From Lawsonibacter asaccharolyticus (GTDB taxonomy: Bacteria > Bacillota > Clostridia > Oscillospirales > Oscillospiraceae), in the NCBI GenBank assembly GCA_003112755.1, contig BFBT01000001.1:2666001-2730000 (forward strand): a stretch of DNA of 64,000 bases. Direction: 5' to 3'. The translations under genes and the position numbers were made by a program. Position 1 is the first letter of the stretch. Each line of letters opens with the position of its first letter. Shown in pieces: positions 18,348-34,806 of this stretch. The notes under the pieces are model-generated. The model ran no database searches. It saw nothing but the letters and a program-made list of their open reading frames with translations, and was not told the DNA's origin.

Positions 18348-18402
18348 TTGACAATGGGTGCGTACGGCGATATAATTTCTTTGTAGTTAGTTATTGCTAA
18401 CC
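18348..18402 (+). promoter_or_regulatory. Promoter with DtxR-like box 1
   Basis: TTGACA (18348-18353), 17 bases, TATAAT (18371-18376), then AGTTAG-TTATTG-CTAACC at 18385-18402 covering the expected +1. Repressor binding here would block transcription of the Cys/His-rich peptide operon. Confidence 0.75.
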
Positions 18403-18454
18403 TCTGGCAATCTGCCATTCTACTGAAACACAAAAACGTAAAGGAGGACGCGCC

Positions 18455-18619
18455 ATGCTGGAACTGATGAATCAAATGAACACTCAGGAGAACGCCGACA
18501 AAGTGGATCTCCTGCACCTGGACCCTACCAACCCGGACGGGGGCTGCTGTTGTGGGAAGCACAACGGCGGACACTGCTGCGGACGGCATAAGCATGGGCA
18601 GAAGCGGGAGGAAGCCTGA
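18455..18619 (+). CDS. Cys/His-rich small metal-binding peptide
   Basis: 54 residues after a strong AAAGGAGGA site. The C-terminal half is a dense metal-ligand tail (GGCCCGKHNGGHCCGRHKHG) with five Cys and five His. The N-terminal half is acidic and helical. No membrane segment. It is the first gene after the box-1 promoter, followed by a ZIP transporter remnant. A metal buffer or chaperone is the natural inference; no family name is claimed. Confidence 0.7.
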   Translation: MLELMNQMNTQENADKVDLLHLDPTNPDGGCCCGKHNGGHCCGRHKHGQKREEA

Positions 18620-18632
18620 GCCGGTCTGGACA

Positions 18633-18840
18633 ATGGTAACACCTGTAATTTATGGCCTGCTGGTCCCCTTTACCGGTACATCGCTGGGTGCTGCCTGCGT
18701 CTTTTTCCTAAAGAATGGCCTGGGGGATCGGGTGCAGCGGGGCTGACTGGGTTTGCCTCCGGCGTCATGGTAGCCGCTACCCCTCACAACAGTCCTAAGG
18801 GAATGGCGGTAGGTGTGGTCTATCAGAAGCTCCGGGGGCC
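18633..18840 (+). pseudogene. ZIP metal transporter remnant
   Basis: Starts MVTPVIYGLLVPFTGTSLGA, as in ZIP-family zinc/iron importers. It shifts frame after about 38 codons into LTGFASGVMVAA, and then jumps to PHNSPKGMAVGVVYQ, which matches the ZIP HNIPEGMAVGVV motif. More than half of the protein is missing. It lies 13 bases after the Cys/His-rich peptide gene, so it was probably part of the same metal-responsive operon. Confidence 0.65.
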
Positions 18841-18939
18841 GGGTATCCGGCCAACCCACTGCCTGCTGGTGCGGCTTACCGACGGGCTGTTGAAATTACA
18901 GATCGTGCGGATGGTTTTTCGGAAGGAGGAGCGGAGGAT

Positions 18940-19740
18940 ATGAAACAGACGGAGATCCGTCTCGGCACCCACGGTGAGGATTACGGCAACTGGATGCCGA
19001 ACCTAATTCTCTACACAGTAGGAGGAATGTTTGTTTTCATGGCAGCCCTGACGGTATTTTGCTTTACTGCCTTTTATTTTCCTCATACGGGGACGATATT
19101 TGCTGTTACGGCGGCCCTGCTACTGGCTCTGCTACTCTGGTGTGCCTGGATTCGGCGGCAGTATGCCTTCAACGGTGGCGGAATGATGGAGCGGGTCCAT
19201 CAGGTCGTCCTCTCCCACCTGGACTTTGGCGGGCAGGGACAACTCCTGGATGTGGGCTGCGGCTCCGGGGCCCTGTCCATCCGGGCGGCGCTTACTTGGC
19301 ATTCAGCCCAGGTGGTAGGTATTGATTACTGGGGCACGCCCTATGGCTACGGCCAGACCATGTGCGAGAAAAACGCCCGGAGCGAGGGTACGGCGAACCG
19401 ATGTCGGTTCCAACAAGGGGACGCAAGGAAACTGGACTTCCCGGACGAGTGCTTCGACGCCGTGGTAAGTAACTATGTGTATCACAACATCACGGGGGCG
19501 GACAAGCGGGCGCTGCTGTTAGAGACCCTGCGGGTGCTGAAAAAGGGCGGTGTGTTCGCCCTCAACGACGAGATGAAGCCGCATATGTATGGAGACATGG
19601 AAGAGTTTGCCCAGGAACTGCGGGACATGGGCTATACGGAGGTTCGGCTCATCGACACGGCGCAGGAGGCCTTCGGCTCCCACCGGCGGGCGGCCATGAT
19701 GATGCTGGGCGAGTCCCGGATGCTGGTGGGGCGAAAATAG
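18940..19740 (+). CDS. Membrane-anchored class I SAM methyltransferase
   Basis: 266 residues. Two N-terminal membrane helices (about 22-45 and 50-70) precede a Rossmann methyltransferase domain with SAM motif I LLDVGCGSGALSI (about 101-113), an acidic post-I residue (GIDYWG) and a VVSNYVYHN motif IV. ATG 18940 follows GGAGGAG. Same strand as the box-1 promoter and likely in its transcript. The substrate cannot be read; the neighbourhood suggests a metal- or metallophore-related small molecule or lipid. Confidence 0.8.
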   Translation: MKQTEIRLGTHGEDYGNWMPNLILYTVGGMFVFMAALTVFCFTAFYFPHTGTIFAVTAALLLALLLWCAWIRRQYAFNGGGMMERVHQVVLSHLDFGGQGQLLDVGCGSGALSIRAALTWHSAQVVGIDYWGTPYGYGQTMCEKNARSEGTANRCRFQQGDARKLDFPDECFDAVVSNYVYHNITGADKRALLLETLRVLKKGGVFALNDEMKPHMYGDMEEFAQELRDMGYTEVRLIDTAQEAFGSHRRAAMMMLGESRMLVGRK

Positions 19741-19883
19741 ACACCCATTAGAAGCTGTGCGTTCAGATGCTGGAAAGCGCTATCACTGTGTCGGTAGTTC
19801 GGCTTTTACTGGCAGCAGGAGTTGACTTCCTGAATTGGAGTTTGAGCTTCCGAGTTTGATGCGGGTGAGAAACGCTGCCTGTC

Positions 19884-19938
19884 TTGACAAGTGAACGAGG
19901 CATGTTATAATACAGCGAGAGGTTAGATATTGCTAACC
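19884..19938 (+). promoter_or_regulatory. Promoter with DtxR-like box 2
   Basis: TTGACA (19884-19889), 16 bases, TATAAT (19906-19911), then the perfect dyad GGTTAG-ATATTG-CTAACC (19921-19938) over the start of transcription of the HMA gene. Confidence 0.78.
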
Positions 19939-19973
19939 ATGTCGAACAGATCGATTGGCAGGAGGTTCAGACG

Positions 19974-20222
19974 ATGTGGAAATACACAATCCAGGTGGAC
20001 GGCATGATGTGCGGCATGTGCGAAAGCCATGTGAACGACGCGGTGCGGAAAGCATTTCCGGTGAAGAAGGTCACCTCCTCCCGGAGCAAAAAAGAGACCA
20101 CGGTAATCGCAGAGACGGAACTGGACGAAGCTGCCCTGCGCGCGGCTATTTCCGCCACCGGCTATGAGGTGGGGGAGATCCGGAAGGAGCCTTGGGAAAA
20201 GAAGGGGCTGTTCGGCCGGTAA
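19974..20222 (+). CDS. Heavy-metal-associated (HMA) chaperone
   Basis: 82 residues, one HMA domain with a ferredoxin-like pattern and the metal site MMCGMCESH (CxxC). It ends with a short basic tail (EPWEKKGLFGR). HMA proteins pass Cu(I) or similar soft metal ions to P1B ATPases or sensors. Transcribed from the box-2 promoter, with an AraC-type regulator starting about 40 bases downstream and P-type ATPases nearby. The metal is not decided by sequence. Confidence 0.88.
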   Translation: MWKYTIQVDGMMCGMCESHVNDAVRKAFPVKKVTSSRSKKETTVIAETELDEAALRAAISATGYEVGEIRKEPWEKKGLFGR

Positions 20223-20260
20223 AGAGCCGGGATACAGACAGACGGAAAGGGGGCAGAACA

Positions 20261-21142
20261 TTGCTGGCGGAATTTCTGGCGGATCGGGGAGACTGGACCC
20301 AGGTAATGCCCGGCGCACGGGCCTGCCTGTTCTCTCTGGAGGAGGGGGATTTCCACCTGCTTCTCCAACTGGCCCCCCTGCACTTTGAGACCCTGTTCTG
20401 TCTGCGGGGATCCGTGACCTTGACACGGCGGGACGGGTCATCCCTGACCGCCGGCGCCCGGCAGGTGCTGATCCTCACCGACCTCTCCAATCTGATTGGG
20501 GCCAGATTGGACGCCCCCCTGGAGGGCGTCCTGGTGGCGGTAGACGCCCGGGGCGCCCGGAAGAGTTTGGAAACCATATGTAATCTGCTGGGCGGCTTGG
20601 CACTGGACACTGGCCGGGTACGGCGGTGGATGACCAGCCGGGGCGGCTGCGCCGTGGAGGGGCCCACCCACTGGAGCCGGGCGGCCTTTGCCGACCTGGA
20701 TCGCCTGCCTCCCAGCGAGCGAGCCCGCTGGTGCGTGTGGAAGTCGGTGGAACTGCTCTATCTGCTCTCCGCCCAGGAGGAACAGGGGATGAGTACTCTC
20801 CCGGGGCCGATGCCGGATCGGAATATTGCCCGGTTACTGGCGGAGACCCGCCGTTACATGGAGGAGCATCTGGATGAGCCGCTTACCATCCCTGCCCTGA
20901 GCCGCCGGGCCTGTCTCTCCGCCACTATGTTTAAGGAGGGATTCCGCCGGCTGTATGGGCTTCCGGTTCACACCTGGCTGCGGCTACGGCGGATGGAGCG
21001 GGCAGCGGAATTACTGCATACGCCCGGATTAAATCTGGAAGGAGTGGCAAAAGCGGTGGGCTACAGCAGCGTCAGCCAATTCGCCGCCGCTTTTCGTCAG
21101 CAATATGGAGTGACTCCGGACCAATACCGAAAAAATGTCTGA
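20261..21142 (+). CDS. AraC family regulator
   Basis: About 293 residues. The C-terminal AraC DNA-binding domain has two helix-turn-helix units (LTIPALSRRACLSATMFKEG and LEGVAKAVGYSSVSQFAAAF). The N-terminal 180 residues form an unrecognised sensor domain. I prefer TTG 20261 after AAAGGGGG; the TTG at 20192 would overlap the HMA gene. It resembles the YbtA/PchR type that activates siderophore uptake genes, which fits the transporter cargo downstream, but the ligand is unknown. Confidence 0.83.
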   Translation: MLAEFLADRGDWTQVMPGARACLFSLEEGDFHLLLQLAPLHFETLFCLRGSVTLTRRDGSSLTAGARQVLILTDLSNLIGARLDAPLEGVLVAVDARGARKSLETICNLLGGLALDTGRVRRWMTSRGGCAVEGPTHWSRAAFADLDRLPPSERARWCVWKSVELLYLLSAQEEQGMSTLPGPMPDRNIARLLAETRRYMEEHLDEPLTIPALSRRACLSATMFKEGFRRLYGLPVHTWLRLRRMERAAELLHTPGLNLEGVAKAVGYSSVSQFAAAFRQQYGVTPDQYRKNV

Positions 21143-21192
21143 ATAGGCGGCTGATCGGCTGATTTGGCAATGCGGCTGCGCGGGATGTCTGC

Positions 21193-21198
21193 TATAAT
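21193..21198 (+). promoter_or_regulatory. Extended -10 promoter
   Basis: TGCTATAAT gives an extended -10 (TATAAT at 21193-21198) ahead of the small peptide/DUF6110/P-type ATPase genes. No good -35 and no GTTAG-N6-CTAAC box, so it may depend on the AraC regulator upstream. Confidence 0.45.
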
Positions 21199-21330: not shown

Positions 21331-21360
21331 GTACATAGCAGAAAGGAAGAAACCCCCATG

Positions 21361-21621
21361 ATGAAACACTATGTCAAACTGGCCTGTTTCGTGGGCGGCG
21401 CTCTGTTTGGCTCCGCCGGCGTGAAGCTGCTTGCCAGCAAGGACGCCAAGAAGGCCTATACCCACATTACCGCCGCCGGCCTGCGGATGAAGGACAGCGT
21501 AATGGAGACCGTTACCGACCTTCAGGAGAATGCCGCCGACATCCTGGCCGCCGCCAAGGACATCAACGAGGCCCGGGCCGCCAAGGAAGCCGAGGCTCAG
21601 GTAGAGGGCCAGGAGGCCTGA
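21361..21621 (+). CDS. DUF6110-like protein
   Basis: 86-87 residues. An N-terminal hydrophobic helix (VKLACFVGGALFGSAGVKLL) is followed by an amphipathic Ala/Lys/Glu-rich helix. I recall DUF6110 proteins next to P1B ATPases in Clostridia, as here (58 bases before the ATPase). Two ATGs (21358, 21361) are possible after AAAGGAAG. Probably a membrane partner of the ATPase; function unproven. Confidence 0.6.
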   Translation: MKHYVKLACFVGGALFGSAGVKLLASKDAKKAYTHITAAGLRMKDSVMETVTDLQENAADILAAAKDINEARAAKEAEAQVEGQEA

Positions 21622-21678: not shown

Positions 21679-23769
21679 ATGAAAGCGACCATCGTACATG
21701 AGAGCCGGGGCCGGATGCGCCTGCGGCTCCGGCAGAAAAATATGACCCTCCGGCAGGCAGACCTGCTGGAGACCTGGCTGAAGGGACAGCCCTGGACAAG
21801 AGAGGTCGTGGTCCATGAGCGCACCGGCTGCGTCATCGTGACCTATGCGGGAGATCGGGAGACGGTGCTATCCGCCATCGGCGGCTTCACCTGGGCCGGA
21901 GCGGAGGAAACGGTCACCCTGCCCGGCCACAGTACCCGGGCGCTGAACCGGGAGTTTCAGGAGAAGCTGGCGGGCAAGGTGCTGATGAAGGGGGCGGCCG
22001 CCCTGTTCCTGCCCGCCCCTCTGCGGGCGGCCCGGGTGGTGTGGCACATGGCGCCCTTCCTCCGCAAAGGCCTGCGGTGTCTGGGCCGGAGGAAAATCAA
22101 GGTGGAGCTACTGGACGCCCTGTCCATCGGCATCTCCGTGGGCCGCCGGGACTTCGGCACTGCCGGCATGGTGATGTTCTTGCTGGAGATCGGCGAACTG
22201 CTGGAGGACTGGACCCGGAAGAAGTCGGTGGCCGACCTGGCGGAGAGCCTGTCCCTCCATGTGGACCGGGTGTGGCTGAAAACGGAGGGCGGGGAGGTGC
22301 TTACCCCCATCGGCCAAATCAAACCCGGCGACCGGGTAGTGGTTCGGGCCGGGGGCGTCATTCCCCTGGACGGCGTGGTGGCGGAAGGAGAGGTCACCGT
22401 CAACCAGGCATCCCTCACCGGCGAATCCGTCCCTGTGGCCAAGCATTCCGGCGGCGCGGTGTACGCCGGCACCGTGGTGGAGGAGGGTGAGTGCGTCCTG
22501 GAGGTGAAACAGGCCACCGGCCAGGGCCGCTACGACCAGATCGTGGAGATGATCCAGCGGTCCGAGCAGCTGAAGTCCGCCGCCGAGGCCAAGGCGTCCG
22601 GCTTGGCGGACAAACTGGTGCCCTACACCTTCGCCGGGAGCCTGCTGAGTCTGGCCCTCACCCGGAACGTGACCCGGGCTTTGTCCGTGCTCATGGTGGA
22701 CTTCTCCTGCGCCCTGAAGCTGGCCATGCCCCTGGCGGTGCTCTCCGTTATGCGGGAGGCGGGACGGGAACACATCACCGTCAAAGGCGGCAAATTCCTG
22801 GAGGCGGTGGCCAAGGCGGACACCATCGTCTTTGACAAGACCGGCACCCTTACCCATGCCTGCCCCCAGGTGGCGAAGATCGTCCCTTTCAATGGGAAAG
22901 AAGAGGAAGAGATGCTCCGCCTGGCCGCCTGCCTGGAGGAGCACTTCCCCCACTCCATGGCCAACGCCGTGGTGGAGGAGGCCCGCCGCCGGGGGCTCAC
23001 CCACGAGGAGCGCCACGCCAGGGTGGAGTACCTGGTGGCCCACGGCATCGCCAGCTCGGTGGACGGGGAGCAGGTGCGCATCGGCAGCGCCCACTTCATC
23101 TTTGAGGATGAAAAGTGTGTGATCCCCGAAGGGGAGCAGGAAAAGTTCGACGCCCTGCCCCCGGAGTACTCCCAGCTGTATCTGGCCATCGACGGGGTGC
23201 TCTCCGCCGTGCTCTGCATTTCCGACCCCCTGCGGGAGGAGGCAAAGGACGTGCTCACCGCCCTGCGGGGCCTGGGTGTGCGGAACGCCGTCATGCTCAC
23301 CGGGGACAGCCCCCGCACCGCCGCCGCCATCGCGGCGCAGCTGGAGGTGGACGACTTCCGGGCCGGGGTGCTCCCGGCGGACAAGGCGGACTATGTGGCC
23401 GCCCTCCGGCGAGAGGGCCGCACCGTCCTCATGGTGGGGGATGGCATCAACGACTCCCCGGCCCTCTCCCAGGCGGACGCGGGTATCGCCATCAGCGACG
23501 GGGCGGCCATCGCCCGGGAGATCGCCGACATCACCATCGCCGCCGACAGCCTGTGGGAGTTGGTGCGCCTGCGGCAGCTGGCTATGGCCCTTATGCGCCG
23601 CATCCAGAACAACTACCGGTTTGTCATCGGCTTCAACGGGGCGCTCATCGGCCTTGGCGTAGCAGGTATCCTGCCCCCCGCCACTTCCGCCATGCTCCAC
23701 AACCTGTCCACTCTGGGCGTGAGCCTCCACAGCATGAGCGCTCTGCCGGTTGAGAAAAAAGAGCCCTGA
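21679..23769 (+). CDS. P1B-type metal ATPase with atypical SCA motif
   Basis: 696 residues. The N-terminal HMA-like domain lacks CxxC. The ATPase core has TGES (247-250), DKTGT with phosphorylated Asp386, and MVGDGIND (585-592). Two diagnostic motifs differ from standard copper or zinc pumps: the membrane ion site CPC/SPC reads SCALKL (343-348), with no proline, and the nucleotide-domain HP motif reads EEHFPHS (420-426). This marks a distinct P1B subgroup whose metal I cannot assign. Cotranscribed with the DUF6110-like gene. Intact. Confidence 0.88.
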   Translation: MKATIVHESRGRMRLRLRQKNMTLRQADLLETWLKGQPWTREVVVHERTGCVIVTYAGDRETVLSAIGGFTWAGAEETVTLPGHSTRALNREFQEKLAGKVLMKGAAALFLPAPLRAARVVWHMAPFLRKGLRCLGRRKIKVELLDALSIGISVGRRDFGTAGMVMFLLEIGELLEDWTRKKSVADLAESLSLHVDRVWLKTEGGEVLTPIGQIKPGDRVVVRAGGVIPLDGVVAEGEVTVNQASLTGESVPVAKHSGGAVYAGTVVEEGECVLEVKQATGQGRYDQIVEMIQRSEQLKSAAEAKASGLADKLVPYTFAGSLLSLALTRNVTRALSVLMVDFSCALKLAMPLAVLSVMREAGREHITVKGGKFLEAVAKADTIVFDKTGTLTHACPQVAKIVPFNGKEEEEMLRLAACLEEHFPHSMANAVVEEARRRGLTHEERHARVEYLVAHGIASSVDGEQVRIGSAHFIFEDEKCVIPEGEQEKFDALPPEYSQLYLAIDGVLSAVLCISDPLREEAKDVLTALRGLGVRNAVMLTGDSPRTAAAIAAQLEVDDFRAGVLPADKADYVAALRREGRTVLMVGDGINDSPALSQADAGIAISDGAAIAREIADITIAADSLWELVRLRQLAMALMRRIQNNYRFVIGFNGALIGLGVAGILPPATSAMLHNLSTLGVSLHSMSALPVEKKEP

Positions 23770-23862: not shown

Positions 23863-25736
23863 TCACTTCCTCTTCCACTTCAGCAGGAAAGCGGAGCAGG
23901 TGATGACCAGCACCGACCCGGCATTGTGGACCAGGGCCCCCACCACCGGGTTTAAGGTGCCGTTGATGGCCAGGACGATGGCGATAAAGTTCAGCGCCAT
24001 GGAGAAGGTCATATTGACCTTGATGGTGGTCATCATCCGCTTGGACAGGGCGATGAGGTGGGGCAGCTCCTTCACCTCGTCGTCCACCAGGGCGACGTCC
24101 GCCGCGTCCACGGCGATGTCGCTGCCCACGCCGCCCATGGCGATGCCCACCTCGGCCCGCTTCAGGGCGGGAGCGTCGTTGATCCCGTCGCCGATCATGC
24201 ACACCGGCTGACCGGCGGCCTGGTACTGGTCGATGGCCTTCAGCTTGTCCTCCGGCAGACAGTTGGCCCGCACCGAAGGAATCTTCAGCTGCCCGGCAAT
24301 GGTCCGGGCGGCGTTTTCATGGTCGCCGGTGAGCAGCACCGGCTGTACACCCAAGCCGTTCAATTTCTGGATCATGTCCGCGCTCTCCTCCCGCAGAGTG
24401 TCAGAGAGGACGATGTAGCCCGCGAACACCCCGTCCACCGCCAGATAGGTGACCGTACAGCCCTTCTGAACCGCCTCTTCCGCCCCGGGCGGGGGCGTCA
24501 TGGACACGCCGTGCTCGTGTAGCAGCTCCGGGTTTCCGGCCAGGATCTCTTTGCCCTCCACCCGGGCGCTCACGCCCCGGCCGGGGAGCATGGAAGAGCC
24601 ATCGGCTGGGACGAGCTCGGTTCCAAACTCCTTTTTGCAGCAGCGTACAATGGCCTTACCCAGGGGGTGTTCCGAGAACCGCTCGGCGGAAGCGGCCAGC
24701 AGGTAGATCTGTTCTTTGCTGTAAGTATCGGTCACACTTGCGGCTTCCACTACCTCCGGGGTGCCGTAGGTCAGGGTGCCGGTCTTGTCAAAGGCAATAA
24801 TCTTCACCCGGGCCAGCCGCTCCAGGGCGTCCCCTTCCCGGACCAGGAAGCCGTGCTTTGTGGCGTTGCCGATGGCCGCCATGATGGCGGTGGGGGTGGC
24901 CAGCACCAGGGCACAGGGACAGAACACCACCAGGATGGTCACCGCCCGGATGATCTCCGAGGTGACGAGCCATGTGATGGCCGCCGCACTCAGGGCGATG
25001 ATAACGATCCATGTGGCCCAGCGGTCGGCCAGCCCCACAATCTTGGCCTTGCCTGCGTCGGCGGACTGCACCAGCCGGATCATCCGCTGGATGGAGCTGT
25101 CCTCTCCCACCTTGGTGGCCCGCATCTCAAAGGCTCTAAACTGGTTCACTGTGCCGCTGGAGACCTCATCCCCCACGGTCTTGTCCACTGGCAGGGACTC
25201 CCCGGTCATCACCGCCTGGTTGATGGAGGTTTGACCGGAGACGATGACGCCGTCCACCGGCACCCCCTCTCCGGCAGGACCCGGAGCAGATCGCCCACCT
25301 GCACCTGTTCGGCGGGAATGATGCGCTCCTGTCCGTCCCGCAGCACCCGGGCGGTCTGGGGCGTCAGATGCACCAGTTTCTCGATGCCCGCCCGGGCCTT
25401 GGCTACGGTCAACTCCTCCAGCAGGCCGCCCAGCTGCATGATGAAGGCCACCTCGCCGGCGGCGAAGTCCTCGCCGATGGCCACCGAGGCGATGAGGGCC
25501 AGGGATACCAGCACGTCCGCCTTGATGTCAAAGGCGGTAACCAGGCCGATGACGGCCTCCAGAATGATGGGGACGCCGCACAGGACAATGGCTACCCACG
25601 CCATGTCAAAGGGAAAGGGCCGGACGCCCAGCAGGCTCAGCACCACGGCGATCCCGGAGATGACCAGCAGCGCAATATCCTTTTTGATGCCGCCCAGCTC
25701 CAGCAGATGTTCCAATTTTTCCATGAGTGATTTCAT
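23863..25736 (-). pseudogene. CPC-type P1B metal ATPase, one-base frameshift
   Basis: Together the two frames give a complete P1B ATPase of about 624 residues without an HMA domain. The N-terminal frame (25736 to about 25270) carries the first membrane helices through VQVGDLLRVLP. The remainder carries TGES, the CPC ion site (VVFCPCALVLATP), DKTGT, SEHPLG and GDGIND. Expected LPGEGVPVDG reads LPERGCRW because one G is missing near 25271. Either the gene is inactive or the base is a sequencing error. A CsoR-type repressor gene lies upstream, so copper, or possibly another soft metal, is the likely substrate. Confidence 0.85.
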
Positions 25737-25777
25737 GACTCGCCTCTCCTTTATACCGTATAGGGTATGGGTATATT

Positions 25778-25793
25778 ATACCCGTTGGGGTAT
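25778..25793. promoter_or_regulatory. CsoR-type operator before the ATPase
   Basis: ATACCC-GTTG-GGGTAT, a dyad of the kind bound by CsoR/RcnR repressors, 42 bases before the ATPase start. A partner site lies at 26119-26134. Confidence 0.6.
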
Positions 25794-25804
25794 CAGGTGT
25801 CAAG

Positions 25805-25833
25805 AAAAAAGGCAGCCCGCCGGGCTGCCTTTT
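25805..25833 (-). terminator. Terminator after csoR
   Basis: GGCAGCCCG/CGGGCTGCC stem with T tract on the minus strand, directly after the csoR stop and before the ATPase promoter, so the two genes have separate transcripts. Confidence 0.7.
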
Positions 25834-25841
25834 CCGTTTCA

Positions 25842-26106
25842 TCAACTCATGTTGGAGAACCGCTCCACCGCCTTGGTGAAGCTCTCGATGGTCTTGTCCG
25901 CGTCCCCATGTTGGATGCCGTCCCGGACGCAGTGCTGGATGTGTCCCTCCAGCACCACCTTGCCGCACCCGTGAAGGGCGGACTTGGCCGCGTTGATCTG
26001 AGCCAGAACGGATGTCCTCGTCGATCATCCGGTCGATGGCCTGCACCTGTCCGATAATCTTCTTCAGCCTGCGGTGCAGATTGTCCGCATCCATGCACTG
26101 TCTCAT
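25842..26106 (-). pseudogene. CsoR family metal repressor, deleted
   Basis: Starts MRQCMDADNLHRRLKKIIGQ, the first helix of CsoR/FrmR repressors, and ends in the family tail (KTIESFTKAVERFSNMS). Between IDEDI and VLAQINAAKSAL about 8-11 bases are missing near 26010, removing the first metal-binding Cys (normally PCxDVL) and shifting the frame. The His/Cys pair of the second half (GHIQHC) survives out of frame. The repressor is presumably non-functional. Confidence 0.75.
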
Positions 26107-26298: not shown

Positions 26299-26916
26299 AT
26301 GGAAGAAAAATCTACCGCCACCCTGGAGAATATCCAAGAGGCCGCTTTGACAGAGTTTCTGGACAAGGGCTTTCAGGGGGCCTCCCTGAGGCAGATCGTG
26401 AAAAACGCCGGAGTAACTACTGGAGCCTTCTACGGCTATTTCTCCAGCAAGGAGGCGCTGTTCAACGCCCTGGTGGAGCCCCACGCCAAGGCGCTGATGG
26501 GCCGGTTCATGGAGGCCCAGACCACCTTTGCCGAGCTGCCAGAGGACGAGCAGCCCGACCACATGGGGGATGCGTCCGGCGCCTATGTACGATGGATGGT
26601 GGACTACATCTGCGCCCACCGGGAGCCGGTGAAGCTGCTCCTGTGCTGTGCGGAGGGCACTAGCTATGAGCACTTCGTTCACAACATGGTGGAGGTGGAA
26701 GTGGAATCCACCCTCCAGTATATGGAGGTGCTGCGGCATCTGGGGCGGGATGTGCCGGAACTGAGCCGGTCCCTGTGCCACATCATCGCCAGCGGGATGT
26801 TCAGCGGCCTCTTTGAGATCGTGGTCCACGATATGCCCCGGGAGCAGGCACAGCGGGACGTGGAACAGTTCCGCCAGTTTTACACCGGAGGATGGCTGAA
26901 ATTGATGGGGGGATGA
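26299..26916 (+). CDS. TetR/AcrR family regulator
   Basis: 205 residues. The N-terminal TetR helix-turn-helix (ASLRQIVKNAGVTTGAFYGY, FSSKEALF) is followed by an all-helical ligand-binding domain. AAGGAG precedes ATG 26299. It directly precedes the ABC transporter pair, with a DtxR-like box in between, so it may add a second input to that operon or control only itself through the dyad in its promoter. Ligand unknown. Confidence 0.85.
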   Translation: MEEKSTATLENIQEAALTEFLDKGFQGASLRQIVKNAGVTTGAFYGYFSSKEALFNALVEPHAKALMGRFMEAQTTFAELPEDEQPDHMGDASGAYVRWMVDYICAHREPVKLLLCCAEGTSYEHFVHNMVEVEVESTLQYMEVLRHLGRDVPELSRSLCHIIASGMFSGLFEIVVHDMPREQAQRDVEQFRQFYTGGWLKLMGG

Positions 26917-26937: not shown

Positions 26938-26955
26938 GGTTAGTTATTGCTAACC
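26938..26955 (+). promoter_or_regulatory. DtxR-like box 3 before ABC pair
   Basis: Perfect dyad GGTTAG-TTATTG-CTAACC directly after a GATAAT -10 candidate (26932-26937) and 20 bases before the ABC transporter start. The -35 is poor, so the promoter may be weak or activated. Confidence 0.7.
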
Positions 26956-26974: not shown

Positions 26975-28768
26975 ATGAAGCAAAAGAAAAAGAGCGACAT
27001 CGCGGCCCTGCTGGACTACGCGGGGAGCCACCGGGGGCTGACCTTTCTGGGGCTGGGCCTGTCGGCGGTGTCCATGGTGTGCAGCATGATCCCCTACCTC
27101 TGTATCTGGCTGGCGGCCCGGGATCTGATCGAAGTTGCGCCAAACTGGACGCAGGCCCAGAGCGTCGCCCGGTACGGGTGGCTGGCCTTCGGGGCCGCCT
27201 TCGGGGGCATTGTACTGTACTTTGGGGGGCTGATGTGCACCCACCTGGCGGCTTTCCGCACAGCGGCCAACATCCGCAAGCGGGGCGTGGCCCATGTGAT
27301 GAACGCCCCGCTGGGCTGGTTCGACGCCAACGCCTCCGGCCTGATCCGGGGGCGGCTGGACGCGGCGGCGGCCGACACCGAGACCCTGCTGGCCCACAAT
27401 CTGGCGGACATCGTGGGCACCATCACCTTGTTCCTTGCCATGCTGGTGCTGATGTTCGTCTTTGACTGGCGAATGGGCTGCACCTGCCTGCTGGCGGCGG
27501 TGATCTCCATCCTCACCATGTTCTCCATGATGGGGGGCAAGAACGCTCAGATCATGGCGGAGTATCAGGCGGCCCAGGACCGCATGACCAAGGCGGGCAC
27601 GGAGTATGTCCGGGGCATCCCGGTGGTGAAGATCTTTCAGCAGACGGTCTACTCCTTCAAGGCATTCCAGCAGGCCATCGAGGAGTACAGCGCCAAGGCC
27701 GAGCACTATCAGGCGGACGTGTGCCGGGTGCCCCAGTCCATCAACCTGACCGTCACCGAGGGGGCCTTCGTGTTCCTGGTGCCGGCGGCCCTGTTCCTGG
27801 CCCCGGGGGCCCTGGCCGCCGGGAGTTTCGCCGGGTTTGTGACCGACTTCGCCTTTTACGCGGTGTTCTCCGCCATCATCTCCACGGCGCTGGCCCGGAT
27901 CATGTTCGCATCCTCCGGCATCATGCTGGCCGGCACCGCCCTAGGCCGCATCCGCATGGTCATGGAGGCCCCGGAGCTGAAAGCACCGGAGCGCCCCAGG
28001 ACGCCCCAGGGCAGCCGGGTGGAGTTCCGGGATGTGAGCTTTACCTACGACGGGGCGGAGACGCCCGCTCTCAGCCATGTGTCTTTTACAGTAGCGCCGG
28101 GACAGACCGTGGCCCTGGTGGGCCCCTCCGGCGGCGGCAAGACCACCGCCGCCAGCCTGATCCCCCGGTTCTGGGACGTGTCCTCCGGCGCGGTGACGGT
28201 GGGCGGCGTGGATGTGCGGGACATGGACCCCCATGCGCTCATGGATCAGATCGCCTTTGTGTTCCAGAACAGCCGCCTGTTCAAGACCTCCATCCTGGAG
28301 AACGTCCGGGCCGCCAGGCCGGAGGCCACCCGGGAGCAGGTGCTCTCAGCTCTGATGGCCGCCCAGTGTGGGGACATTCTGGAAAAGCTGCCAAAGGGTA
28401 TGGATACCGTGATCGGCACGGAGGGCACCTACCTCTCCGGCGGAGAGCAGCAGCGGGTGGCCCTGGCCAGGGCCATCTTGAAGGACGCCCCCATCGTGGT
28501 GCTGGACGAGGCCACCGCCTTTGCCGACCCGGAGAACGAGGCCCTGATTCAGAAAGCCTTCGCCCGGTTGACGAAGGGCCGCACGGTCATCATGATCGCC
28601 CACCGCCTGTCCACCGTGGTGGGGGCGGACAAGATCCTCGTCCTGGACCAGGGGCGCATAGTGGAACAGGGGACCCACGATGAACTGACCGCCGCCGGCG
28701 GGCTGTACGCCAGGATGTGGGCGGACTACAACCGGGCGGTCCAGTGGAAGATCACCAGCGAACGGTGA
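26975..28768 (+). CDS. ABC transporter, fused permease-ATPase, subunit 1
   Basis: 597 residues: six-helix exporter-fold membrane domain (about 15-300), then an ATPase with Walker A GPSGGGKTT, Q-loop VFQNSRLF, signature LSGGEQQRVALARA and Walker B IVVLDEATAFAD. It pairs with the next gene (17-base gap) as a heterodimer. In this context (DtxR-like box, AraC, ECF importer) it resembles the YbtP/YbtQ and Irp6-like transporters, which have an exporter fold but import metal-siderophores. That role is inferred from neighbours. Confidence 0.88.
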   Translation: MKQKKKSDIAALLDYAGSHRGLTFLGLGLSAVSMVCSMIPYLCIWLAARDLIEVAPNWTQAQSVARYGWLAFGAAFGGIVLYFGGLMCTHLAAFRTAANIRKRGVAHVMNAPLGWFDANASGLIRGRLDAAAADTETLLAHNLADIVGTITLFLAMLVLMFVFDWRMGCTCLLAAVISILTMFSMMGGKNAQIMAEYQAAQDRMTKAGTEYVRGIPVVKIFQQTVYSFKAFQQAIEEYSAKAEHYQADVCRVPQSINLTVTEGAFVFLVPAALFLAPGALAAGSFAGFVTDFAFYAVFSAIISTALARIMFASSGIMLAGTALGRIRMVMEAPELKAPERPRTPQGSRVEFRDVSFTYDGAETPALSHVSFTVAPGQTVALVGPSGGGKTTAASLIPRFWDVSSGAVTVGGVDVRDMDPHALMDQIAFVFQNSRLFKTSILENVRAARPEATREQVLSALMAAQCGDILEKLPKGMDTVIGTEGTYLSGGEQQRVALARAILKDAPIVVLDEATAFADPENEALIQKAFARLTKGRTVIMIAHRLSTVVGADKILVLDQGRIVEQGTHDELTAAGGLYARMWADYNRAVQWKITSER

Positions 28769-28784: not shown

Positions 28785-30539
28785 ATGTTCAGCAAAGCGT
28801 TTCAGCGCAAATACGCCCTGACCGATCAGGGCCTGAAAAACACCAAAAGCGGCGCGTTCTGGACCGTCATCACCAACCTGGTGGTCATGGGCGGCATGGG
28901 CATTTTGTACCTGCTGATGGGGGGCTTTATGGACACCCTGACGGACGGCGCGCCTCTGCCGGGAGCAGCACTGCCGGTGACTCTGACGGTGGGATTCGTC
29001 CTGTTGTCCTTTGTGACCCACCTCCAGCAATACCGAGCCACCTACGGCCTGGTGTACGGCGAGGTCAAGACTACCCGCCTGCGTCTGGCGGAGCGGCTGC
29101 GGAAGCTCCCCCTGGGCTACTTCGGCAAGCGGGACCTGGCGGACCTCACCGAGACCATCATGGGGGACGTGAACCGGATGGAGCATGTGTGGAGCCATGT
29201 GCTGGGCTATCTGTACGGGGCCTACATCTCCACTGCCATCATCGCCCTGTGCCTGATCTTCTACGACTGGAGGCTGATGATCGCCTGCCTGTGGGGGGTA
29301 CCGGTGGCCTTCGGACTGCTGTTTGGCAGCCGGAAGATCGCCGCCGAAAACTCTGAGGTGACCAAGAGAGCCGCCCTTCGGGTCTCCGACGGCATCCAGG
29401 AGGCGCTGGAGAACGTCCGGGAGATCCGGGCCGCCAACCAAGAGGAGCGGTATCTGGCCGGCCTCCATGAGAAGATCGACCAGCACGAGAAGGTCACCAT
29501 CCGGGGCGAGCTGACCACCGGCTTGTTTGTCAATGCCGCCAGCGTCATTATGCGCCTGGGGGTGGCCACCACCATCCTGACGGGGGCAAGCCTGATTTTG
29601 TCCGGTCAGATCGACTTCATGGTGCTGTTCCTGTTCCTGCTGGTCATCACCCGGGTGTACGCCCCCTTTGACCAGAGCCTGGCCCTCATCGCGGAGATGT
29701 TCGTCTCCCAGGTGTCCGCCGACCGCATCAACGAGATCTACGAGACTCCCATCGCCAAAGGGACGGAGACATTCCATCCCCAGGGCCATGACATCGTATT
29801 TGACCATGTGGGCTTTGCCTATGACAAAAAGCAGGTGCTTCGGGACGTGAGCTTCACCGCCAAAGAGGGAGAAGTCACGGCCCTGGTGGGCCCCTCCGGC
29901 TCCGGCAAGAGCACCTGCGTCCGGCTGGCCGCACGGCTGTGGGACGCCACCGAGGGGACTATCCGGGTGGGCGGCGTGGACATCGCCGCCGTGGACCCGG
30001 AGGTGCTGCTCACCGACTACTCTATGGTCTTTCAGGACGTGGTGCTCTTTGACGACACCGTCATGGAGAACATCCGCCTGGGCAAGCGGGGCGCGACAGA
30101 CGAAGATGTGATGGCCGCGGCCAAAGCCGCCAACTGCGACGAGTTCGTCAGCCGTCTGCCCCAGGGCTATGACACGCCGATTGGAGAGAACGGCGCTAAA
30201 CTCTCCGGCGGGGAGCGGCAGCGGATCTCCATCGCCCGGGCACTCCTAAAAGACGCACCCATCGTCCTGCTGGACGAGGCAACCGCTTCTCTGGATGTGG
30301 AGAATGAGACGAAGGTGCAGGAGGCCCTGTCCCGCCTGCTTCAGGGCAAGACGGTGCTGGTGATAGCCCACCGGATGCGCACCGTGGCGGGGGCGGATCA
30401 CATTGTGGTACTGGAGGACGGCCGTGTGGCCCAGCAGGGCAGCCCGGCGGAGCTGATGGAGCGAGGCGGCCTCTACCGCCGCATGGTGGAGCTTCAGAGC
30501 GAGAGCGCCCAGTGGCGGCTGAACAGCGCGGAGGCATAA
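28785..30539 (+). CDS. ABC transporter, fused permease-ATPase, subunit 2
   Basis: 584 residues, partner of the previous gene. The membrane domain begins after AFQRKYALTDQGLKNTK; the ATPase has Walker A GPSGSGKST, Q-loop VFQDVVLF, signature LSGGERQRISIARA and Walker B IVLLDEATASLD with a regular catalytic Glu. Translation start ATG 28785 after AAAGGGGGA. Substrate inferred as a metal chelate; a drug or peptide exporter is the alternative. Confidence 0.88.
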   Translation: MFSKAFQRKYALTDQGLKNTKSGAFWTVITNLVVMGGMGILYLLMGGFMDTLTDGAPLPGAALPVTLTVGFVLLSFVTHLQQYRATYGLVYGEVKTTRLRLAERLRKLPLGYFGKRDLADLTETIMGDVNRMEHVWSHVLGYLYGAYISTAIIALCLIFYDWRLMIACLWGVPVAFGLLFGSRKIAAENSEVTKRAALRVSDGIQEALENVREIRAANQEERYLAGLHEKIDQHEKVTIRGELTTGLFVNAASVIMRLGVATTILTGASLILSGQIDFMVLFLFLLVITRVYAPFDQSLALIAEMFVSQVSADRINEIYETPIAKGTETFHPQGHDIVFDHVGFAYDKKQVLRDVSFTAKEGEVTALVGPSGSGKSTCVRLAARLWDATEGTIRVGGVDIAAVDPEVLLTDYSMVFQDVVLFDDTVMENIRLGKRGATDEDVMAAAKAANCDEFVSRLPQGYDTPIGENGAKLSGGERQRISIARALLKDAPIVLLDEATASLDVENETKVQEALSRLLQGKTVLVIAHRMRTVAGADHIVVLEDGRVAQQGSPAELMERGGLYRRMVELQSESAQWRLNSAEA

Positions 30540-30561: not shown

Positions 30562-30591
30562 AAGGGCACGGCTCAATCGAGCCGTGCCCTT
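30562..30591. terminator. Terminator between convergent ABC and araC genes
   Basis: Perfect 13-bp stem around AATC (AAGGGCACGGCTC arm). It contains the last codons of the minus-strand araC gene. Confidence 0.75.
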
Positions 30592-31538
30592 CTGCGATAT
30601 TCCAACGGCGGACAGCCGAACTGTTTGACAAAGACCGCCGCGAATTTGCTTTGATTTTCGTAGCCCACCTGTGCCGCGATCTCGGGCACCTGCAGATCCG
30701 TGCCCCGCAGCAGTTCCGAGGCCCGGCGCATCCGGGCCTCCCGGAGCCAGACAGAGAGATTTTCTCCAAATACCCCGCGAAAGTAATTCTTCAAACTGGT
30801 TTCCCCGATCTGGAACCGCTCCGCCAATTCCTGTGCCGTATGATTATGGCTGAGATCGGATAGGAGAATGGAGCGAACCTCCTTGGCAATAGCCACTTGG
30901 GACAAGGTGAAATACCGGATGCGCGGATGAGGTACATAGGGCTGCCGCCCCAATTCCAGTAGTAACCGGACAGAGCCAAGTTTCATCATTCCCACATCCT
31001 CCGTATCCCGCAATTCCCACAACTCGGACAATATCCCCTGTGTGGCAGTCGGGGTCTGAGCGAGATAGAGTTTCTGAGCGGCTTGGAAATGCCGGATCAA
31101 GGCCGACAGATCAATGCCTGCCTCCTGGAACATGCAGTAGGGTTTCTGTGCCAATATATCCAGGTCCAGAAACAGCTCCACCCCCTCGTAGATGCCGCTG
31201 GGGTAACGATAGGCTTCCTTGGCCTGCTGGGTGCCCAGGGCCATGATCCCCTGGGAGAGGAAAGCGAACTGTCCGTTGTCCAGATTCACCTCACACCGCC
31301 CATTGAGGCAGAAGTTCAGCAGAAGGATATTGGCCGCCTCTGTCTGGGCCAGAGGCCAGACCTGGGTATAAATCCGGTTGAAGGAGAGGACCACACCAGG
31401 GGCCAGGGGAAAGAACCGCAGACTTCCGTATTCATTCCCGTCCAGCGTCATGGTGGCGCTGATACCGTCCGTATGTACTTCCACGCCGCCGGGAAATCGG
31501 ACTGCCTCAAAGAGCTGCATCAGATGGGACATCGGCAT
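30573..31538 (-). CDS. AraC family regulator, YbtA-like
   Basis: 321 residues. An N-terminal cupin-like sensing domain (about 1-215) and a C-terminal double helix-turn-helix (AQELAERFQIGETSLKNYFR and VPEIAAQVGYENQSKFAAVF), the arrangement of PchR/YbtA regulators that bind metallophores and activate uptake genes. It is convergent with the ABC pair and divergent from the ECF operon, whose promoter lies 100-180 bases away. Confidence 0.85.
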   Translation of the reverse strand: MPMSHLMQLFEAVRFPGGVEVHTDGISATMTLDGNEYGSLRFFPLAPGVVLSFNRIYTQVWPLAQTEAANILLLNFCLNGRCEVNLDNGQFAFLSQGIMALGTQQAKEAYRYPSGIYEGVELFLDLDILAQKPYCMFQEAGIDLSALIRHFQAAQKLYLAQTPTATQGILSELWELRDTEDVGMMKLGSVRLLLELGRQPYVPHPRIRYFTLSQVAIAKEVRSILLSDLSHNHTAQELAERFQIGETSLKNYFRGVFGENLSVWLREARMRRASELLRGTDLQVPEIAAQVGYENQSKFAAVFVKQFGCPPLEYRRRARLD

Positions 31539-31643: not shown

Positions 31644-31697
31644 TTGCAGTATGGGGGATGCTGTGCTATCCTGTCAAGTGGTTAGCGTAGTCTAACG
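31644..31697 (+). promoter_or_regulatory. ECF operon promoter with DtxR-like box 4
   Basis: TTGCAG (31644-31649), 17 bases, TATCCT (31667-31672), then GGTTAG-CGTAGT-CTAACG at 31680-31697 covering the start of transcription. Confidence 0.72.
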
Positions 31698-31720
31698 AGT
31701 AATTGACAGGAGGAATTCAA

Positions 31721-32323
31721 ATGTCTCAACAAGGAATGGACGGGAAGCGGAAACTGACGGCAAAGGACGCTATCACAGCCGGTGCGTTGGGTGCGGTCTG
31801 CATCGCCATCCGATTTATCTTTATGCTGGTGGGCGGTATCAGCCCCTATGTATGGTTTGCCACCCACTTTGTTGATGCCATCCTGATCGGGCCGGTGTTC
31901 ATGCTGCTGGTGGCAAAGACCCGAAAGAACGGACCTTTCCTGATTACCAGCCTCGTCACAGGCGTAGTCCTTGTATCCGCCACCTGGATGTTCCCCATCA
32001 CCGGCCTTGTGGGCGGCGTCTTGTGCGAATTGTGCCTGAAGGCTGGGCAGTTCCGGAAGAAGGGCTGGCTGGTGCTGGGCTTCTTCTGTTTCAACCTGGG
32101 TTTCATCGGGGATTTCCTGCCTCTGTGGTTTACCAAGGAGAGTTATTTGGAGTACGCAGCCCAGATGATGGACCCCGGCTATATGGCCACCATGGAGGGT
32201 CTGTTGACCTGGCCGGTGTTCGGCGTCATCGTCCTGAGTATCCTGGTGGGCTCCATCCTGGGCGCCCTGCTGGGGATGAAACTCATGCGTAAGCACTTTG
32301 TGAAGGCCGGGCTGGCCCAATGA
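31721..32323 (+). CDS. MptD-like ECF transporter S component
   Basis: 200 residues with about six membrane helices; substrate-binding subunit of an energy-coupling-factor importer, of the MptD family by recall (LTAKDAITAGALGAVCIAIR). ATG 31721 after AGGAGG. It overlaps the next gene by 4 bases. First gene of a three-gene S-T-AA' operon under box 4. In siderophore or metal islands this type of S component may carry the metal or metal chelate; not proven here. Confidence 0.82.
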   Translation: MSQQGMDGKRKLTAKDAITAGALGAVCIAIRFIFMLVGGISPYVWFATHFVDAILIGPVFMLLVAKTRKNGPFLITSLVTGVVLVSATWMFPITGLVGGVLCELCLKAGQFRKKGWLVLGFFCFNLGFIGDFLPLWFTKESYLEYAAQMMDPGYMATMEGLLTWPVFGVIVLSILVGSILGALLGMKLMRKHFVKAGLAQ

Positions 32324-33012
32324 GCGCACGGCAAGTCTCGGGCCTGGCGCTTGACCCGAGGACGAAAATTTTGATTTGGCTGCTGGCCAATGTGGTAGTA
32401 TTCACCTGGTCGCCGGCGGTTTTCCGTATAGGGGTCATGCTGGCCTATTTCCTTCTCTTCCTGCTGGAGCGAAAGGGGAAAATGCTGGCAGGCCTATTAG
32501 TGACCTACTTTGCGATTCTGGCGATCCAATACTGGTTGCTGCCGGCCCTGCCCGGATCCCTGGCCACGGTTTTCGCCACCGTGACCTACTTTATTCTGGT
32601 TTTCCCCTGTATCGCTGGCGGGGCGTATATCATCGCCACCACCAGCGTCAGCCAGTTCATGGCTGCGCTGGAGCGGATGGGCGTTTCCCGGAACTTCTCC
32701 ATCACCCTGGCAGTGACACTGCGGTTTCTCCCGGCTCTGCGGCAGGACTTCCGGCACATCCGGGACGCCATGGCCCTGCGGCGCATCCGGGGGCTGGAGC
32801 AGAAATTGGAGTGCGTCTATGTCCCCATGCTCATGGGGGCGGTGCAGATAGCCGAGGAACTGAGCGAGTCCGCTACCTCCCGGGGCATTGAGCACCCCGG
32901 AAAGCGGTCCTCCTGGCGGCCCATCGGGTTCCACATCCAGGATGCGGTGGTCTGCCTGGCCTTTGCGGCCCTATGCGTGGGCGGCATCTGCTGCAAGGGG
33001 GTTCTGCCATGA
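32320..33012 (+). CDS. ECF transporter T component (EcfT/CbiQ)
   Basis: 230 residues, about five membrane helices. The cytoplasmic coupling-helix motif of EcfT proteins is present (DAMALRRIRG, then SATSRGIE) and would dock the ATPase pair. Translationally coupled on both sides: ATGA at 32320 and ATGA at 33009. Confidence 0.87.
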   Translation: MSARQVSGLALDPRTKILIWLLANVVVFTWSPAVFRIGVMLAYFLLFLLERKGKMLAGLLVTYFAILAIQYWLLPALPGSLATVFATVTYFILVFPCIAGGAYIIATTSVSQFMAALERMGVSRNFSITLAVTLRFLPALRQDFRHIRDAMALRRIRGLEQKLECVYVPMLMGAVQIAEELSESATSRGIEHPGKRSSWRPIGFHIQDAVVCLAFAALCVGGICCKGVLP

Positions 33013-34406
33013 TCGCCTTTGACCATGTGACCTATACCTACGAGAGCCGGGAGCACCCTAGCCTCCTGGACTGCTCTTTCACAGTGGAGCCGGGGGAACT
33101 GATCCTCCTGACCGGGGAGAGCGGCTGCGGAAAGACCACCATCATCAAACTGACCAACGGGCTTCTCCAGCATGGCGGGGGTGGGACGCTGGAAGGGACG
33201 GTCACCGTCAATGGCTGGAATGTATCCCCAATTCCCCTGTGGGAGCTGGCCCAGACCGTGGGTTCTGTGTTCCAAAATCCAAAGTCCCAGTTCTTCAATC
33301 TGGATACCACCAGCGAGGTGCTGTTCGGGTTAGAGAGCCGGGGGACATCCCACCAAGAGATGGAGCAGGCTCTTTTCAATGCGGCAAAGGTCTGCGGCAT
33401 AGGGCCGCTCTTGGATCGGAACATCTTTGCCCTGTCCGGCGGGGAGAAGCAGCGTATCGCCTGTGCCAGCGCCTATGCCATGGGGCCGGAGATCTTTGTG
33501 CTGGACGAGCCCTCCTCCAATTTGGACAGTGAGGGCATTCGCCAGCTGCGGGAGATCCTGAAGCAGTTGAAAGCGGCAGGAAAGACGGTGCTGGTGGCAG
33601 AGCACCGCCTCTGGTATGCCGCCGACCTGGCCGATCGGATGTTCTATCTGCGGGCAGGTCGGCTGGAACAAGTGTATCCAAGGGCGAAATTCCTCGCACT
33701 GCCCGAAGAACAACGCCGGGCCATGGGGCTGCGTAGCCTGACTGAAGTGCCTTTGCCGGAACCGCAGTCTGCATCAGGCGAACCCGGAGATGGCCTGACA
33801 GTGCGGGGCCTGCGGGCCTCCTATGATCGGACGGCTGTGTGGGAACAGGTATCTTTTTCCGCACCCAGGGGACAAATCACCGCCATCACCGGCCACAACG
33901 GTGCAGGGAAGACTACCCTGGCACGCTGCCTCTGCGGTCTGATGAAGGAGAAATCCGGTTCGATCCTCTGGGATGGGAAACCGCTGAACCGGAAAGGCCG
34001 CCGGCAAAAGAACTTCCTCATTATGCAGGATGTCAATCTCCAGTTATTTGCCGACAGCGTGCTGCCAGAAGCCCAGTTGGGGAATGACGCGAATGAGATG
34101 GAGGCCATGGCCGCGCTGGAGCGGATGGATCTGGCCCAGTACGCCCAGGCACACCCCCTGGCCCTTTCCGGCGGGCAGAAGCAGCGGCTCGCCATCGTGG
34201 ACGGCTGCCTCAGCGGGAAAGAACTGCTGATTTTCGACGAGCCCACCAGCGGCCTGGACTACGTCCATATGCTGGAGGTGAGCCATCTGCTCCGGGAACT
34301 GGCGGAGCGGGGCCTGTGCGTGCTGGTCATCACCCACGACGGGGAGTTCCTGCGGGAGAGCGGCGCCCAGACGGTGGAGTGGATGCCAAAAGAACAGTTC
34401 CAATAG
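33009..34406 (+). CDS. Fused ECF ATPase pair (EcfA-EcfA')
   Basis: 465 residues with two ABC ATPase domains in one chain. Domain 1: Walker A GESGCGKTT, signature LSGGEKQR, Walker B IFVLDEPSSNLD. Domain 2: GHNGAGKTT, LSGGQKQR, LLIFDEPTSGLD. It powers the S/T importer. The true start is the ATG at 33009, overlapping the EcfT stop. A fused double ATPase is common in ECF systems of Clostridia. Confidence 0.9.
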   Translation: MIAFDHVTYTYESREHPSLLDCSFTVEPGELILLTGESGCGKTTIIKLTNGLLQHGGGGTLEGTVTVNGWNVSPIPLWELAQTVGSVFQNPKSQFFNLDTTSEVLFGLESRGTSHQEMEQALFNAAKVCGIGPLLDRNIFALSGGEKQRIACASAYAMGPEIFVLDEPSSNLDSEGIRQLREILKQLKAAGKTVLVAEHRLWYAADLADRMFYLRAGRLEQVYPRAKFLALPEEQRRAMGLRSLTEVPLPEPQSASGEPGDGLTVRGLRASYDRTAVWEQVSFSAPRGQITAITGHNGAGKTTLARCLCGLMKEKSGSILWDGKPLNRKGRRQKNFLIMQDVNLQLFADSVLPEAQLGNDANEMEAMAALERMDLAQYAQAHPLALSGGQKQRLAIVDGCLSGKELLIFDEPTSGLDYVHMLEVSHLLRELAERGLCVLVITHDGEFLRESGAQTVEWMPKEQFQ

Positions 34407-34438
34407 TATTTACAATTACAGCGGAAGGAGGCTCGCCC

Positions 34439-34806
34439 ATGGCATTGCATGCATCTGGCGAAGACTATCTGGAGGCCATACTTCTTCTCCACAAGAAGAT
34501 GGGCATGGTGCGCTCCGTGGATGTGGCCAGGCACATTGAGGTGTCCAAGCCCAGCGTGTGCCATGCGGTGGCGACCCTGCGGGAAGGGGGCTTCCTGACA
34601 ATGGACAGCGACTATTTCCTGCACCTGACCGATGTAGGCCGGGAAGTGGCGGAGCAGATTTACGAAAAACACTGCTTCTTTACTGACCGGCTGATCGAGG
34701 CTGGAGTAGACCCGAAACGGCGGAACGGGACGCCTGCCGGATGGAGCACGTCATCAGTAGCGAGAGTTTTCAACGCCTCAAAGCGGCGTCCGAGCAAAAG
34801 TCTTGA
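34439..34806 (+). pseudogene. DtxR/MntR-family regulator, one-base frameshift
   Basis: The N-terminal winged helix is typical (ASGEDYLEAILLLHKKMGMV, then VSKPSVCHAVATLREGGFL), followed by LTDVGREVAEQIYEKHCFFT. After GVDP the frame should read ETAERDACRMEHVISSESF and end at TGA 34804, giving about 122 residues. One G is missing near 34714, so the current frame runs to 34885 with an unrelated tail. The metal-binding and dimer region is split. This is the natural candidate repressor for the four GTTAG-N6-CTAAC boxes. Confidence 0.82.

Follow-up and report, generated by a model that had tools for sequence, protein, structure and literature searches.

The equibactin locus eqbA–N lies on the integrative element ICESe2 of Streptococcus equi and encodes the DtxR-like protein EqbA. 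EqbA binds a palindrome in the eqbB promoter containing GTTAG-ATGTAT-CTAAC, using Fe2+, Zn2+ and, less completely, Mn2+ (PMC3672683). The genes eqbH, I and J are annotated as the S component, the T component and the duplicated ATPase of an energy-coupling factor (ECF) transporter, and eqbK and L as a heterodimeric ATP-binding cassette (ABC) transporter (PMC8754150). In S. equi, eqbHIJ was needed for equibactin-linked iron import, and the iron phenotype was not lost when eqbKL was deleted (PMC3672683). In this study, a stretch of 64,000 nucleotides of Lawsonibacter asaccharolyticus (contig BFBT01000001.1, positions 2,666,001 to 2,730,000; hereafter the window) was analyzed, and a gene cassette at 18.3–34.8 kb was compared with this and other known systems. 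The cassette is likely an accessory iron kit, with operators matching those of the host's core iron genes, that is run by the host's iron regulon.

The cassette shares with the equibactin locus a DtxR-family gene, the GTTAG-N6-CTAAC operator arms, an ECF S component, T component and duplicated ATPase, a heterodimeric ABC pair and, plausibly, an integrative element (PMC3672683, PMC8754150). It differs in that its regulator is broken and its box is common to core iron genes of the host. It also adds heavy-metal-associated (HMA), DUF6110/P1B-ATPase and Cys/His peptide units, with four boxes in one cassette. The nonribosomal peptide synthetase (NRPS) condensation domain gave 0 matches in this genome in a search that was positive in 4 of 14 control genomes, so self-made equibactin is unlikely. 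The regulators described below are called EqbA-type by their operator arms and domain make-up.

Three further systems are similar in part. The equibactin-like cluster of C. difficile clade 3, a gut clostridium, combines a DtxR/MntR gene with a siderophore cluster on the transposable island 023_CTn1. It differs in being predicted to make its siderophore, and its DtxR/MntR gene is listed with no remark on damage (PMC6814731). The ferrosome fez genes also consist of a metal-transporting ATPase and a partner membrane protein, with low-iron induction expected (PMC12574912, PMC10979944). C. difficile fezAB is repressed by Fur (PMC12574912), whereas a DtxR-type box precedes the unit here, which is likened to FezA/FezB by the description of the genes. 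The acquired mptABC/mptDEF island of Mycobacterium avium subsp. paratuberculosis holds an IrtAB-like ABC operon and a second transporter, mptDEF; it differs in its Zn/FurB control and belongs to another phylum (PMC4298942). The S component of the cassette is labelled 'MptD family' by NCBIfam.

The box in the cassette, the genome and related loci

Four exact GTTAG-N6-CTAAC dyads were found in the window (Table 1), against 0.03 expected from dinucleotide shuffles, and four were reached in 0 of 100 shuffles. A fifth exact dyad was not found in the window. When up to two mismatches were allowed, the window gave 11 matches, including the four dyads, against 11.5 by chance. All four dyads named in the preliminary description were present, although its coordinates include one flanking base. 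Its statement that the window has no other copy agreed with the exact matches, and the genome outside the window has four more. The dyads had also been placed directly after -10 boxes; this position was strong for the Cys/His peptide and HMA genes, moderate for the ECF operon and poor for the ABC pair. The box of the ABC pair lies 22 bp past the TetR gene, and TetR and the ABC pair could therefore form one operon with an internal box site.

A motif scan of the whole genome, a check suggested in the preliminary description, returned eight boxes: the four of the cassette and four outside it. The host boxes lie upstream of feoA-feoA-feoB, 20 bp before feoB, upstream of DUF3793 and flavodoxin genes, and in the intergenic region that follows the RNase III gene, where a candidate small RNA (sRNA) is located. 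Pfam scans covered FeoA, FeoB, RNase III, the third PF01325 match of the genome and the type I specificity gene. The feo and flavodoxin genes are iron-starvation genes, the content expected of an iron regulon. A reversed-pattern control gave three matches in the genome; any one of the host sites might therefore be accidental, but their locations can hardly be. With longer arms and one mismatch, the genome scan gave seven sites, all already known, against five in the reversed control; the longer-arm scan therefore added no new target.

The conservation of the box was investigated in 80 loci (the best 80 of 496; 1.35 Mb), which were fetched by similarity to the second ABC protein (ABC2) without using the box. 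G and L numbers below are working labels for the compared genomes and loci, and G000 is the genome of the window itself. The 80 loci contained 134 boxes, against a mean of 0.7 for 29 permutations of the arm letters. Spacers of 0 to 12 other than 6 gave 0–2 matches each. Of the 68 genes for the first ABC protein (ABC1) with a readable start and upstream region, 61 had a box no more than 150 bp upstream, and its spacer letters were variable. The box counts are not independent events because the loci are related; yet the arms are kept while the spacers differ freely. A chance or repeat origin of the boxes was ruled out, since arms are retained while spacers vary.

The longer form GGTTAG-N6-CTAACC was searched for in 60 genomes, including G000, and 47 copies were found in 25 of them, against 2 for the reversed control. 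Thirteen ECF S genes of the cassette's family were found; for 8 of the 10 with an available locus, a box preceded the match by about 75 bp or less. When the window was compared with G026 (L130), the ECF box had the same base at 10 of 10 arm positions, and 3 of the 6 spacer bases were changed. This comparison bears on the possibility that the cassette is decayed and largely silent, with its boxes as relics. The DtxR gene, the second ATPase gene and the CsoR gene are indeed broken. However, the reading frames of the ECF, ABC pair, DUF6110, P1B, HMA and methyltransferase genes are open, and the arms of the ECF box were kept while its spacer changed, which makes a silent cassette very improbable.

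DtxR-family regulators and their link to the box

The DtxR/MntR-family gene that had been reported at 34439 is present but broken, with its two domains in two frames. The helix-turn-helix part is in one frame to about codon 90, and the metal-binding end (DACRMEH) is in another. In this second frame, 20 of 23 residues of the end (ETAERDACRMEHVIS...) are identical to the intact relative in L026. Intact relatives with 82–89% identity over the first 90 residues were found in L026 (Flavonifractor sp. An10), L042, L062 and L128, each lying in one stretch with the cassette or related transport genes. In L026, the intact gene directly follows the ABC pair, ahead of the box-ECF operon. The idea that operator, regulator and targets travel together finds some support in these four loci, but in the window the regulator copy is frameshifted.

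The genome also has an intact DtxR paralogue on another contig (C3), 59% identical to the L026 protein. Both the L026 protein (119 aa) and the host paralogue (123 aa) are covered over their length by PF01325 and PF02742, with no SH3 domain. The third PF01325 match in the genome is better described as MarR. The motif SKPSV in the helix-turn-helix is common to the two proteins; from DtxR structures we take it to be the DNA-contacting helix, and its sharing fits a common operator.

In the preliminary description the cassette was a self-contained regulon, in which its own DtxR controls the cassette operons only. The intact relatives beside the cassette or related transport genes in the four loci, with the L026 gene between the ABC pair and the box-ECF operon, would suit such an arrangement. 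It is highly unlikely for this genome and was not supported, because the cassette regulator is frameshifted and the box is also found at host iron genes: half of the eight genome boxes are at feoAAB (two), DUF3793-flavodoxin and the candidate sRNA. Since the cassette's own DtxR is broken, the intact host paralogue most likely runs the cassette.

There is a good case, by association, that the box is a DtxR-type operator, as had been claimed. The box arms are identical to those of the EqbA operator (PMC3672683), and in some relatives the box has a DtxR gene as its direct neighbor. A DtxR gene is back to back with feoAA(B), with the box between them, in 5 of 24 box loci (L105, L112, L114, L116, L117). 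Nine of the 47 long-arm boxes have a DtxR gene at a distance of 1 kb or less (7 genes in total), and each of the nine is on the upstream side of the gene; this count used the 74 matches listed, down to E about 2e-7. The two genomes with the most PF01325 matches (11 each, some weak) also have the most long-arm boxes of the 60, with 8 and 6.

The metal site of the host regulator was compared with that of MntR. DACRIEH of the host protein aligned with DVEGIEH/DAEGMEH of MntR, with Cys where MntR has Glu; the Asp is presumably a metal ligand. The Cys in the metal site is tied to an Fe2+ response (PMC3672683). The box could alternatively serve a Mn (MntR-like) or Zn sensor, with a cassette that handles Mn/Zn metallophores. 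Among PDB structures, MntRs are closest to the host regulator, and mptABC of M. avium subsp. paratuberculosis is under Zn/FurB control (PMC4298942), consistent with such a sensor. The core targets, feoAAB and flavodoxin, and the Fe-type Cys, interpreted from PMC3672683, argue for iron, and a Mn or Zn sensor is considered quite unlikely.

Several observations weigh against control of the cassette by the host's iron-sensing DtxR. The metal site is mixed, with Asp as in MntR and Cys as in DtxR, so Mn or Zn could be the metal, and the IrtAB-like mptABC answers to Zn via FurB, not to Fe (PMC4298942). One Fur gene is also present in the genome. The box is absent from 19 kb around the host DtxR paralogue, and this protein is therefore assigned as the regulator by elimination. 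For 38 of the 47 long-arm boxes, the matches listed include no DtxR gene at 1 kb or less. PF01325 was matched in 57 of the 60 genomes, yet 35 have no long-arm box; the presence of a DtxR gene alone therefore does not predict boxes. The exact box is missing at 7 of the 68 ABC1 genes, two of which have near matches (one base off in L043, a 5-bp spacer in L090). Among 18 loci of the first set that carry the DUF6110/P1B module, 6 have an exact box at most 500 bp upstream of HMA or DUF6110; the link to the box is therefore looser for the P1B unit than for the ABC and ECF units. In a second set of DUF6110 loci of about 3 kb each, 7 of 29 had a box anywhere, although the operons may exceed the stretch searched.

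Under host control, the dyad would be the operator of short, SH3-less EqbA-type DtxR repressors, most likely Fe(II)-sensing in these gut Clostridia. With enough iron, the repressor would occupy the box over or just past the promoter and block transcription; with falling iron, it would release the box. The host would use the box at its core iron genes, feoAAB and flavodoxin, and at the candidate sRNA. The same box would bring in the cassette's four units, with the ECF importer and ABC pair, the Cys/His peptide, the HMA protein and the DUF6110/P1B pair, and the host's intact paralogue would most likely take the place of the broken copy.

Cargo of the cassette

The ABC pair belongs to a broad exporter-like family, and many P-glycoproteins outscore IrtA, IrtB and YbtQ among its PDB relatives. 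Import by the pair is therefore suggested by its context. The ECF S component had no PDB relative up to E 1. In its cargo, the cassette corresponds to the transport half of equibactin loci, with ECF S/T/A and an ABC pair but no NRPS genes, and the ECF importer and the YbtPQ/IrtAB-like pair probably take up a siderophore made by others. The ECF importer might instead take heme or another iron source; heme is scavenged by LhaSTA, an ECF transporter under iron regulation in Staphylococcus lugdunensis (PMC7299338). This is unlikely, given that eqbHIJ, of an ECF type found beside a like ABC pair and a DtxR gene, serves equibactin-linked iron import (PMC3672683). The genes named in the preliminary description are present in the window, and the metal-related nature of the proposed targets was supported; the Cys/His peptide had no Pfam match.

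Table 1. Positions of the cassette features and neighboring mobility genes in the window.
Feature	Position	Strand	Remark
MobL relaxase (two open reading frames), excisionase-like open reading frame, tyrosine integrase	12587..15937	+	upstream of cassette; excisionase-like match below model cut-off
Promoter TTGACA-17-TATAAT, then box 1 (18386-18401)	18348..18401	+	box 9 nt after -10; serves Cys/His peptide
54-aa Cys/His peptide gene	18455..18619	+	box upstream
Class I S-adenosylmethionine methyltransferase	18940..19740	+	domain match
Promoter TTGACA-16-TATAAT, then box 2 (19922-19937)	19884..19937	+	box 10 nt after -10; serves HMA gene
HMA-domain metallochaperone-like protein	19974..20222	+	PF00403
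AraC-family regulator	20192..21142	+	PF12833; start uncertain
DUF6110 protein	21358..21621	+	PF19605; sole match in genome
P1B-type ATPase	21679..23769	+	SCALKLAMP instead of a CPC motif; HN at the C-terminal end; possibly P1B6/FezB-like
Second P1B ATPase, heavy-metal	23863..25736	-	Cd/Zn-like matches; split into two frames
CsoR/PF02583-type regulator	25606..26106	-	only N-terminal piece in frame
TetR-family regulator	26299..26916	+	Pfam
Box 3, upstream of ABC pair	26939..26954	+	GATAAT 1 nt before box; no recognizable -35
ABC permease-ATPase 1	26975..28768	+	PDB relatives include IrtA and chain A of 6p6i/8vsi (partner chain named YbtQ)
ABC permease-ATPase 2	28785..30539	+	PDB relatives include YbtQ and IrtB
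AraC-family regulator	30573..31538	-	domain match
Box 4, upstream of ECF operon	31681..31696	+	box 8 nt after TATCCT; weak -35
ECF S component, MptD/Trep_Strep family	31703..32323	+	
ECF T component (CbiQ)	32320..33012	+	domain match
ECF duplicated ATPase	32973..34406	+	domain match
DtxR-family regulator gene	34439..34806	+	frameshifted near 34.7 kb
Two tyrosine integrase genes	36837..39245	+	downstream of cassette

A P1B ATPase adjoined DUF6110 in 28 of the 29 loci available, of 33 DUF6110 matches. FezB is a P1B6 ATPase, and the DUF6110/P1B pair of the cassette may be of ferrosome type, storing or moving iron. An exporter for metal detoxification, as PacL1/CtpC for Zn, is the other reading of the pair. 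DUF6110 is related to PacL/DUF1490 proteins, which belong to a platform for zinc efflux (PMC9374683), and the neighboring second ATPase has Cd/Zn-type matches. On the other hand, efflux switched on under metal starvation by a DtxR box would be odd. The partners of DUF6110 are typically P1B6 ATPases (PMC9374683), FezB is the putative transporter of ferrous iron in ferrosomes (PMC10979944), and fezAB is Fur-repressed (PMC12574912). The exporter reading retains an appreciable, though minority, weight against an iron role of the pair.

In L026, two boxes (868, 1032) precede a methyltransferase, a 170-aa protein without a Pfam match, a window-type methyltransferase, HMA, AraC, DUF6110 and P1B genes. 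The extra methyltransferase and the 170-aa protein (L026 1060-2273) were not seen at that place in the window. Relatives of the Cys/His peptide, with 45–70% identity, occurred in seven places, and in four of the seven a box lay about 51–76 bp upstream (with the start assumed in two). The core of the peptide resembles KVDLLHLxPxxPDGGCCCGxHxGxHCCGRHxH, and its relatives include those at L129 1462, L140 3300, L066 4377 and L068 5156. A ZIP transporter remnant considered at 18620-18940 was not confirmed by Pfam. The second P1B ATPase and CsoR-type regulator genes (23863-26106, minus strand) are both broken.

Candidate small RNA and possible mobility of the cassette

The candidate sRNA of about 170 nt lies at G000:C1:2545880-2546100 (L011 8880-9100, L173), after the RNase III gene. 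Its promoter has TTGACA, with a one-base-changed box between -35 and -10 and the exact box at the start. By DNA search, the candidate was matched in 15 of the 60 genomes including its own, all of one genus, and 12 loci returned by this search were aligned. Of the 12 loci, 5 have an exact copy of the first box site, and 7 a copy that differs by one base. The second was exact in 2, and elsewhere only its left half (GGTTAGAG) was kept.

In the predicted structure, the 5'-GGUUAGAGA stem pairs with UCUCUGGCC, a large CU-rich loop holds an invariant ACCTCCCTNCTTTCT stretch, and a terminator follows. Such a CU-rich loop would be suited to base-pairing with ribosome-binding sites, like that of FsrA. 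Eight of the 21 predicted pairs were changed on both sides, seven of them in the terminator, with a small covariation term obtained without a shuffle control. Conservation of the 5' stem is not independent, because the stem letters overlap the operator half. Rfam gave seven matches on three sRNA loci, none at the gathering score. The sRNA model was also searched over 197 genomes of the order, with the candidate's own genome as the sole member of its genus among the rows listed. Four matches were obtained; three were weak and lacked a box in the loci available. No such sRNA appeared among the papers listed in a literature search (10 of 47).

A broader proposal is put forward tentatively and judged a little less than evenly balanced. 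One iron box would be common to gut Clostridia and read by interchangeable short DtxR repressors. Box-bearing kits, with a possible ferrosome-type storage module and a xenosiderophore importer, would move between these bacteria, plug into the recipient's regulon and be able to lose their own repressor. The regulon would include a CU-rich iron-sparing sRNA, an analogue of RyhB/FsrA under a DtxR-type repressor. The operator, candidate repressor, core and accessory targets and candidate sRNA provide a testable iron regulon for a gut Clostridia group. The results suggest that an acquired metal kit may be wired to the host sensor by a shared operator instead of its own control, and a ferrosome-like module may belong to such kits.

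The preliminary description had placed the cassette on an integrative element, which is plausible from the surrounding genes. Five tyrosine integrase genes are found in the window (92-919, 15146-15937, two in 36837-39245, and 50476-52053), together with MobL relaxases at 12587-14428 and 46274-48079. The distribution is patchy: the ECF S component was matched in 4 of the 60 genomes including its own, with at least 90% identity in G000 and G026 only. The element ends were not found, and no flanking direct repeat of at least 22 nt was recognized in 12000-54000.

Large iron islands were seen in two relatives, at G011:C1:1142959-1296272 and G026:C1:4935-93083 (L128-L136). The genomes G011 and G026 each have 11 PF01325 matches; their long-arm boxes number 8 and 6, and their ECF S matches 6 and 5, respectively, with many of these features in the island stretches. 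In the window, type I restriction-modification genes (N6_Mtase/HsdM, specificity and HsdR-like) are located at 3955-10419, near a tyrosine integrase.

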